Shown here: positions 34,710 through 38,038 of the stretch, in pieces
Numbering within the stretch: the stretch's first letter is position 1
How the letters are laid out: every line of letters begins with the position of its first letter
DNA from: Chthonomonas sp.
Lineage (GTDB): Bacteria > Armatimonadota > Fimbriimonadia > Fimbriimonadales > Fimbriimonadaceae
Length of the DNA stretch: 64,000 bases
Direction of reading: 5' to 3'
Assembly: GCA_016788425.1 (NCBI GenBank)
Contig: JAEURQ010000002.1
Location: 372,001 to 436,000 of the forward strand
Translations under genes and position numbers: made by a program
The notes under the pieces: model-generated
Seen by the model: the letters and a program-made list of their open reading frames with translations, nothing else
Told to the model about the DNA's origin: nothing
The model's database searches: none

Positions 34710-35939
34710 ATGATGCTTCCGCTTCTAGCTGGAATTATTCTGGGCCAAGCCGCGCCCGCGACCAAACCCGTGAACGTCGTGCCGTTTAAGCGCGGCGAGA
34801 ACTCGATGATCATTGACGCAACGGTGAACGGTGTCAAGGGCTCGTTCATGTTTGATACCGGGTTCGCCGGGGCGTTCGTCATGGGCGATCAGTACAACAT
34901 TGGGCCGGCAACCGGCACCATTACCCTGCGCGACTTTGTCGGCGAGTTGCAAGCCAAAACCGTGAAGATGCGCAGCCTGGAAATCGGCGGCATGAAGATC
35001 AAGTGCGACGATGATATCGTGCAGCAACCCGGCGAAAACATGTCCGAATCGTACGGCGTGCACTGCGACGGCATCATGGGCCTCAGCGTATTTAAGGACC
35101 AGATTTTCGAGATCAACTTCCAAAAAAACGAGATATACTTCTATCCGAAAACCTACGATATCACCAAGAAGCCGACGGACAACAAGAAGACTTTCTTGCA
35201 AAAGATGTTGCCCATGGGCAACACCGCGATTGAGCTGCTCGTGCACACCAAGGACGAGCAAGAGTTCATCCTGACGCTTGACACCGGCAACGCGTTCTAC
35301 GCGACGACGTACCTGGAAACAATCGAGAACGCCGGTCTTTGGCCCAAGGAAAAGAAGCCCGATTTCATGAAATCCTCGTTCGTCGCGAGCGGGGAAGTGC
35401 CCAGCTTTACCACGCGCCTGGCCGACCTGCACATCTTCGGCGTCCCGGTGAAAGAGAGCTATTGGGACATCATCGCCCAGCCTTCGGGTTCGGCGGATAG
35501 CCAAGGCACGGTGGGGTTTGGCTTCCTCAGCAACTTCAACGTGACCATTGACCTCGGTCGTCGCCGCGTTTTCATGGAGATGTTCAAGGAGAACGCTCAG
35601 AACGAAGCCGAGGCCGAGTTGGGTTTGGTCGCGCTTTACGACGAAGAACTTAAGGGCGTGGTTGTGTACCGCGTTATGCCGAAGTCGCCCGCGGACAAGG
35701 CGGGCATCAAGCCGCTCGACCACATTCTCTCGCTGGACGGCGTGGAACTGCAAAAGCAGGGCTATCGCGAAATGCGCCGCTTGCTCGAGGGCGCTCCTGG
35801 ATCGAAGGTCAAGGTGATCGCTAGCCGCCAGGGTGTGGTCAAGCGCTACGAAATTGAGCGCGACTATCTGATTAACCAGATGCCGCCGCGAACTGCTGGA
35901 TCACCTGGTCAAGCATCGCCTCCGTCAGGCGGCCGGTAA
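34710..35939 (+). CDS. Exported retropepsin-like aspartyl protease with PDZ domain
   Basis: The 409-aa product has a short hydrophobic N-terminus ([14 protein letters not shown], likely signal peptide). Two retropepsin-like halves follow: [13 protein letters not shown] with D49 and [14 protein letters not shown] with D191. Single-chain fusion of two DTG halves would build a complete active site, as in pepsin. The C-terminal PDZ domain (about 305-390) shows [29 protein letters not shown]. The longer upstream open frame is antisense or out of frame to the TPR gene and is not used. The 3' end overlaps udgB by 68 bp on the opposite strand. Substrate unknown. Confidence 0.82.
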
Positions 35940-36504
35940 AGGTGTTTTGTTGGCTGGGATGGTAGCAACCCAGCACGGCGAGATCGCCGATCGAAACCAT
36001 GGCCCCGTGCGAGAATTTTGCGCGGGGCTTTACTTCGAGAATCCGCAGCGTGGATTCCCACGCAATGCCGCCCAGGCAAAGGATCGCTCGTCGAGCGGGG
36101 TGCAACACCGCCGCCCGCAGGTAGTCCGAGCAGTTGGCCATCTCCTCGCGAGTGGGCTTGTTGTCTGGCGGCGCGCAGTGGCACACCGCCGTAATGAGCG
36201 TATCGCGTAGCCCCAAGCCATCGCCTCGGTGCAGGGAAGTCGGTTGGTTCGCCAGCCCGGCGCGGTGCAATGCTCGGTAGAGCCACTCGCCGCTACGGTC
36301 GCCTGTGAACATACGCCCGGTGCGGTTGGCGCCATGGGCAGCGGGCGCGAGCCCGACAATCAGCCGCGAGGCGTCGTCCGGGCCAAAGTTGGGCACGGGC
36401 AAACCCCAGTAGACTTCCTCCGCGTAGGCGGCGCGTTTCTCGCGAGCAACCAGTTCGCACCAGGTCCGCAGGCGCGGGCAGCGTTCGCACCGAGTGACAT
36501 CCAT
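35872..36504 (-). CDS. udgB: Family 5 uracil-DNA glycosylase (UDGb type, Fe-S)
   Basis: This enzyme excises uracil and some other deaminated bases from DNA. The family 5 motif 1, [19 protein letters not shown], occupies residues 51-69, and [10 protein letters not shown] near the C-terminus is motif 3. Cys 6, 9, 110 and 125 (C-x2-C and C-x14-C) are the likely [4Fe-4S] ligands. The length of 210 aa fits. Such enzymes are common in high-GC and thermophilic bacteria. The ATG lies 15 nt downstream of a strong intrinsic terminator, so expression may depend on read-through (see the leader RNA). No ribosome binding site is evident. Confidence 0.92.
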
Positions 36505-36519
36505 GGCTTAGAGTTTGGC

Positions 36520-36632
36520 AAAAAAAAAGAGCGACCTCTTCGTGTCCCTGTTAGCTCAGGACTTGATCGTCGCTTCCTTTTCTCGAGTTCCGGTATCGAA
36601 CCTCGTTTTGTTGTCTACGGTTTCTTACGAAC
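36520..36632 (-). ncRNA. Structured leader or small RNA upstream of udgB
   Basis: The minus strand has TTGACC (36661-36666), a 17-bp spacer and TAACAA (36638-36643), predicting a start near 36632. The 113-nt RNA would contain a weak 5' hairpin, a bulged CGAG-TTC/GAACTCG hairpin, and a terminator: AGCGAC/GTCGCT outer stem plus a bulged GTCCTG/CAGGGAC inner stem followed by nine U (36520-36528). It ends 15 nt before the udgB ATG. It may be a transcription attenuator (riboswitch-like) or an independent small RNA. I do not recognise a known RNA family. Confidence 0.55.
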
Positions 36633-36637
36633 CCGTC

Positions 36638-36666
36638 TTGTTAGTTTCGGCAATTTTCAAGGTCAA
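36638..36666 (-). promoter_or_regulatory. Sigma70-type promoter of the udgB leader RNA
   Basis: TTGACC, 17-bp spacer, TAACAA, read on the minus strand. Confidence 0.55.
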
Positions 36667-36742
36667 CCTTAGGTTTTGATCAAATTTTGCCGTCTACACA
36701 TATATAAGCGTGTCTACGCCCAAAATGTTTCATCATTAATAC

Positions 36743-36755: not shown

Positions 36756-37055
36756 ATGCCCATTTACGAATACGAACATAAGGAAGAGTCGCTGATGTGT
36801 CCGCACCGCATTGAGGTGCTGCAATCGGTGAAAGACGACACGCTGACGCACTGTCCGGCGTGCGGCATGGAGATCAGCCGCGTCATCTCGCGCGCCTCCA
36901 TCGCCATGGGCATGGGCAACCTCATTGAGACCGCGGGTAAGAACGGGTTCACGGCCTTTAAGAAGCTAGAAAGCGGCGTGTACGAGCGCGTGGCCGGCAC
37001 CGAGGGTCCTTCGATTCTTCACCGCGACGCCGTCGATAAGCTCACCGACGACTAG
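36756..37055 (+). CDS. FmdB-like small zinc-ribbon protein with altered first knuckle
   Basis: This is a 99-aa protein starting MPIYEYEH, like the FmdB/CxxC regulatory family, whose N-terminus normally continues C-x2-CG. Here the first Cys pair is replaced by EHKEESLMCPHR, while the second knuckle (HCPACG) is intact. H8, C15 or H17 with C33/C36 could still hold zinc. The C-terminal part is helical and unrecognised. No ribosome binding site is present. The gene precedes leuD by 12 nt, but leuD has its own -10 box. FmdB proteins are of unclear function, proposed as regulators. Confidence 0.75.
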   Translation: MPIYEYEHKEESLMCPHRIEVLQSVKDDTLTHCPACGMEISRVISRASIAMGMGNLIETAGKNGFTAFKKLESGVYERVAGTEGPSILHRDAVDKLTDD

Positions 37056-38005: not shown

Positions 38006-38031
38006 GGGGGCTCCAATTGGGGCCCCTTTTT
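38006..38031 (+). terminator. Intrinsic terminator of the 58-aa gene
   Basis: GGGGGCTCC pairs with GGGGCCCC over an AATT loop (one G-U), followed by five T at 38027-38031. Confidence 0.8.
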
Positions 38032-38038
38032 GTTTTGC

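Follow-up and report, generated by a model that had tools for sequence, protein, structure and literature searches.

A new intergenic RNA family of Fimbriimonadaceae, probably an independent small RNA gene, found mostly upstream of udgB

The udgB-fmdB intergenic region

Does a structured RNA that ends in a strong terminator shortly before a gene control that gene, or is it a gene in its own right? This question is raised by the region upstream of udgB in the window analysed here, a stretch of 64,000 nucleotides from a genome that the homologues of its udgB assign to the family Fimbriimonadaceae (Armatimonadota). The udgB gene (35872–36504, minus strand) encodes a protein of the uracil-DNA glycosylase superfamily (PF03167, E 6.5e-28), as had been proposed in an earlier sequence-only reading. 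The RNA element is located between this gene, with which it shares the strand, and a divergent gene for an fmdB-type zinc-ribbon protein (36756–37055, plus strand; TIGR02605, PF09723), which is preceded by the leaderless −10 hexamer TAGAAT. In that same reading the element was taken for an attenuator or riboswitch of udgB, with an independent small RNA as a second option.

The divergent udgB-fmdB pair is widespread in Fimbriimonadaceae. The gap between both genes spans 251 bp in the host genome and 31–150 bp in those relatives that keep the pair without the RNA, and most udgB genes of the family have an upstream gap in which there is no room for it. On the fmdB side, two direct copies of GTCTAC on the plus strand (36691–36725) flank a TATATA sequence upstream of the gene and may represent an operator.

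Structure and terminator of the RNA element

The predicted small RNA, with a length of about 116 nt, is encoded on the minus strand between 36636 and 36520, a prediction based on its fold (z = −2.2) and on nine homologues. Its 5′ end would lie near 36636, as judged from the putative −10 hexamer and the first hairpin, and its 3′ end falls in the T run at 36520–36528. From 36636 to 36520, the minus-strand RNA folds into three hairpins, the third of which is the terminator, with a minimum free energy (MFE) of −33 kcal/mol; 7 of 200 dinucleotide shuffles fold as well, so that the excess of stability is moderate. The three hairpins and the T9 terminator described in the sequence-only reading are thereby confirmed.

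Hairpin 1 (36617–36636, minus strand) has the composition ACGG-G-UUC-GUAA-GAA-A-CCGU, with a GNRA loop and a G·A mismatch, and the same position is occupied in a genome of the same genus (G001) by GCGG-G-CC-GAAA-GG-A-CCGU. It is followed on the minus strand by hairpin 2 (36584–36605), predicted from the fold as CGAGGUUCGAUACCGGAACUCG. The intrinsic terminator (36520–36580, minus strand) consists of a stem, AAAAGG(A)GCGAC/GUCGCUCUUUU, which encloses a further hairpin and is followed by T9. This inner or core hairpin (36544–36562, minus strand), GUCC-UG-AGCUAA-CA-(G)-GGAC, holds a bulged purine, has its loop at 36551–36556, and is defined by columns that are invariant or covary in eight to nine genomes. 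The GCGAC/GUCGC part of the terminator stem leads directly into the T9 run at 36528–36520, and 15 nt separate this run from the udgB start codon (ATG at 36504). No other run of nine or more T occurs, whichever strand is read, in a 464-kb sample of the host genome (window included), from which all genome-wide statistics of this study were drawn. The terminator was overlooked by the promoter and terminator scanner because of its large loop; it is retained in both the MFE and the centroid folds, and the alternative pairings observed differ only in the register of a single bulged purine.

The claim that no known RNA family is represented has held. With Rfam 15 at the gathering threshold, no match was obtained in the window or in seven relatives, and the four matches that appear at E values up to 10 are all at chance level. 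A direct DNA similarity search for the element recovered the window itself only, and the short matches inspected elsewhere were mostly coding. In the open-licence literature, no paper was found that deals with Fimbriimonas small RNAs or with Armatimonadetes RNAs of the Hfq type.

Homologues and covariation of the core hairpin

Comparison of the enlarged udgB-fmdB gaps revealed a shared motif, CCTGAG-N1-2-AACAGGG. Among 85 genomes of the family, eight carry it ahead of udgB, on the strand of that gene; they represent the three genera g1 (the host genome and G001), g21 (G084–G087), and g24 (G098 and G099). Another 13 motif matches in the family approximate the number obtained with a reversed-pattern control. 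A covariance model built from the eight copies detected a ninth one in G021, a further genome of genus g21, with an E value of 0.005 before its inclusion and 4e-6 after it. Homologues are therefore present in nine genomes of three genera, and they share a near-invariant hairpin, GYCC-UG-AG(N1-2)AA-CA-R-GGRY, whose conservation in these genomes is far from chance. No further convincing copy of the core pattern was found in the order and the phylum beyond g1, g21, and g24; the matches examined there lie in long stop-free frames (the one in G042 is located in pyrG) and were discarded.

The alignment of the eight sequences contains 14 invariant columns, and the inner 13 bases of the motif are nearly invariant. 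In the stem under the core, the sequence varies and the pairs are largely retained. The pair at the base of the core covaries, being C-G in five, U-A in two, and U-G in one of the eight sequences. The covariation score of these sequences is 0.377, versus 0.231 in shuffles, and is reached by 2 of 500 of them; with the G021 copy it is 0.364, again reached by 2 of 500 shuffles, and the score is higher than in all slid controls. Compensatory changes altering both sides are observed in 5 of 11 pairs, a count that comes from only nine sequences. Conservation in nine genomes of this core, the apical portion of hairpin 3, goes beyond what the sequence-only reading described.

The copies differ in several other respects. 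The core loop has five or six nucleotides, the motif lies 41–187 nt from udgB where both are neighbours, and the core hairpin either forms the terminator or sits upstream of it, as occurs in G084–G086 and G021, where both are separate. The T9 run is also present in G098, and T6CT3-4 takes its place in G084–G086 and G021; G087 and G099 exhibit no clear terminator. In G085 and G086 (L130 and L131), a TTGCTC sequence after the T run can pair with a GAGCAA located before the terminator hairpin. The 5′ halves of the RNA hardly align between genera. Judged from these sequences, the RNA family is fast-evolving and has so far been found in three genera of Fimbriimonadaceae. The tree of uracil-DNA glycosylases is too poorly resolved to date the gain of the RNA or to count its gains and losses.

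A copy apart from udgB

The copy of G021 adjoins fmdB, and udgB is located 5.2 kb away. The intervening region (L245, 842–6049) contains cytochrome bc/Rieske genes, which were named by reading their sequences, and a convergent gene for a GNAT acetyltransferase, situated directly downstream of the RNA. The two parts that these genes separate, udgB on one side and the RNA with fmdB on the other, are neighbours elsewhere in the family. The terminator of this copy is of the same type as those of its genus mates G084–G086. Its bulged base is an A, elsewhere a G, which places the bulge within the CAGGG run; the other arrangement considered, a bulge adjoining the lower stem, is weaker and breaks in G021. 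In genus g24, the RNA adjoins udgB, and the 1.5 kb examined contain no fmdB; in G099, a tRNA-Arg gene is found upstream of the RNA. Since one copy is away from udgB and those of g24 have no fmdB nearby, the RNA needs neither gene.

Promoters and leaderless starts

In the 464-kb sample of the host genome, −10 hexamers cluster 12–14 nt before the called start codons, with a peak at 12–13 nt, in an estimated 30% of the genes, and Shine-Dalgarno motifs are scarce. The −10 profile derived from this genome is YANA(C/A)T, preceded by G/C, with no detectable −35 signal. These sequence patterns make leaderless promoters appear common in the host genome. Fimbriimonadia has a low value, 25, in a table by class that is read here as the percentage of genes with Shine-Dalgarno pairing (PMC10783764).

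The udgB gene has a putative leaderless −10 of its own, CAAACT (36512–36517, minus strand), which lies 7 nt before the ATG, between the terminator and the start codon. Its score of 6.94 bits, the best for a minus-strand −10 in the intergenic region, is reached by 8% of the genes and by 0.5% of the control positions. Near-leaderless candidates precede udgB in several relatives, namely TACACT in G087, CACAAT in G085 and G086, TATGAT in G098, and a weaker TACCTT in G001; in G084 and G099, such a hexamer is at best weak.

For the RNA itself, the promoter TTGACC-17-TAACAA had been proposed. Both hexamers are present (36666–36661 and 36643–36638, respectively), but on the genome-derived −10 profile TAACAA reaches no more than 1.0 bit, and the leaderless promoters show no −35 signal. 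A likelier −10 is GAAACT (36643–36648, minus strand; 4.3 bits on the same profile), which overlaps TAACAA and would place the 5′ end of the RNA at hairpin 1. This assignment is tentative because a stronger hexamer, CAAAAT (36689–36684; 6.9 bits, preceded by GG), is found further upstream. A −10-like hexamer also occurs shortly before the first hairpin in G001 and G021. By the −10 profile of the host genome, the RNA's own promoter is weak.

An independent gene or a cis-acting element

If the udgB leader contained an attenuator or riboswitch, a signal would decide between a stop at 36520 and read-through into udgB. In favour of such a device, only 15 nt lie between the terminator and the udgB ATG, and eight of the nine copies are placed directly before udgB, on its strand. 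However, the RNA of G021 cannot belong to the udgB leader in that genome, as 5.2 kb separate the two and the gene that immediately follows the RNA is convergent. In addition, a putative leaderless −10 for udgB follows the terminator, the core and udgB are well apart in most relatives (about 60–190 nt), and the udgB of most relatives is preceded by a gap of 31–150 bp without such an RNA. Riboswitches and attenuators share with this element a structured RNA and a terminator directly before a gene, but here the RNA persists away from the gene and shows no aptamer-like conserved domain; no Rfam riboswitch matches, and the folds seen contain no antiterminator pairing, only register shifts of the bulge. 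On these grounds, control of udgB by attenuation, the main proposal of the sequence-only reading, is considered unlikely. Its second option, an independent small RNA, is supported by the terminator and by the copy apart from udgB.

A more modest role would be that of a terminator or insulator: a short and unstable transcript, functionless as an RNA, that serves only to halt polymerase in the fmdB-udgB gap. In the host genome, G098, G084–G086, and G021, the element is most conspicuous for its strong terminator, and the poor alignment of the 5′ halves between genera agrees with this proposal. It fails to account for the invariant AG(N1-2)AA loop, which a bare terminator does not need, and for the conservation of the core where it is separate from the terminator (G084–G086 and G021); moreover, with fmdB divergent, the minus strand carries no gene upstream whose transcription would have to be halted. 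Such a role is thus regarded as very improbable. Even less probability is given to the motif acting as DNA instead of as an RNA hairpin, namely as an operator with an imperfect CCTG...CAGG palindrome to which a udgB repressor, such as a DNA-damage regulator, would bind. Its palindromic character, the proximity of a DNA-repair gene, and the near invariance of the inner 13 bases are in its favour. Nevertheless, the spacer is of 5 or 6 nt, a variation badly tolerated by dimeric repressors, so that the loop length favours RNA; the flanking stem covaries as RNA does, the motif is located about 41–187 nt from udgB and inside terminated hairpins, and G021 retains it away from udgB.

Proposed function of the small RNA

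According to these data, the element is probably an independent, lineage-specific small RNA gene, with a putative minus-strand −10 of its own and, at 36520, an intrinsic terminator that is strong. Intergenic small RNAs that depend on Hfq and end in intrinsic terminators constitute a known general class, with which the element shares what is probably a free-standing intergenic gene, a size of about 100–160 nt, hairpins, a GC-rich terminator, a long U tail, and the presence of hfq in the genome; it differs from them in bearing no sequence relation to Rfam families and in its host phylum, with many leaderless mRNAs. The host genome encodes Hfq (98 bits, E 4.6e-28), and the 3′ end of the RNA is U-rich (T9), which fits Hfq binding. 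The predicted RNA is probably Hfq-dependent and trans-acting. In the pathway that we propose, the RNA would be transcribed from its own −10, probably GAAACT (36648–36643), as far as the stop at 36520, Hfq would bind its U-rich 3′ end, and the conserved loop would contact a target RNA or a protein, acting in trans. The udgB mRNA would be leaderless and would start from a separate promoter immediately behind the terminator.

The strictly conserved part of the RNA is only the hairpin with the bulged purine and the AG(N1-2)AA loop, which is therefore the expected site for binding a partner. The iron-responsive element and the operators of phage coat proteins are bulged-base hairpins recognised by an RNA-binding protein, and like the core hairpin they combine a short conserved stem, one bulged purine, and a small conserved loop. 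In this case, the bulge interrupts the 3′ strand of the stem, separated from the loop by two base pairs, and the sequence is another one, so the likeness is a resemblance only. It can be speculated that the core hairpin is the docking site for an RNA-binding protein or a target RNA and that the RNA regulates leaderless mRNAs that have no 5′ UTR, although we regard this as rather doubtful. A role as CsrA sponge was rejected, as the conserved loop does not contain GGA. When udgB and fmdB were considered as base-pairing targets, their duplex energies were no better than those of random genes.

This RNA is of value as a defined family, for which a covariance model is ready for use, in a lineage whose genes in many cases appear to be leaderless; how an Hfq-type RNA can work when a 5′ leader is often missing thereby becomes testable. 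A caution also follows: where a gene has a leaderless promoter of its own, a terminator placed shortly before it does not make an attenuator. Elsewhere in the window (38006–38037), a strong hairpin that resembles a terminator (GGGGGCTCCAATTGGGGCCCC, then T4GT4) is located between a small ORF and ruvB and seems ordinary.
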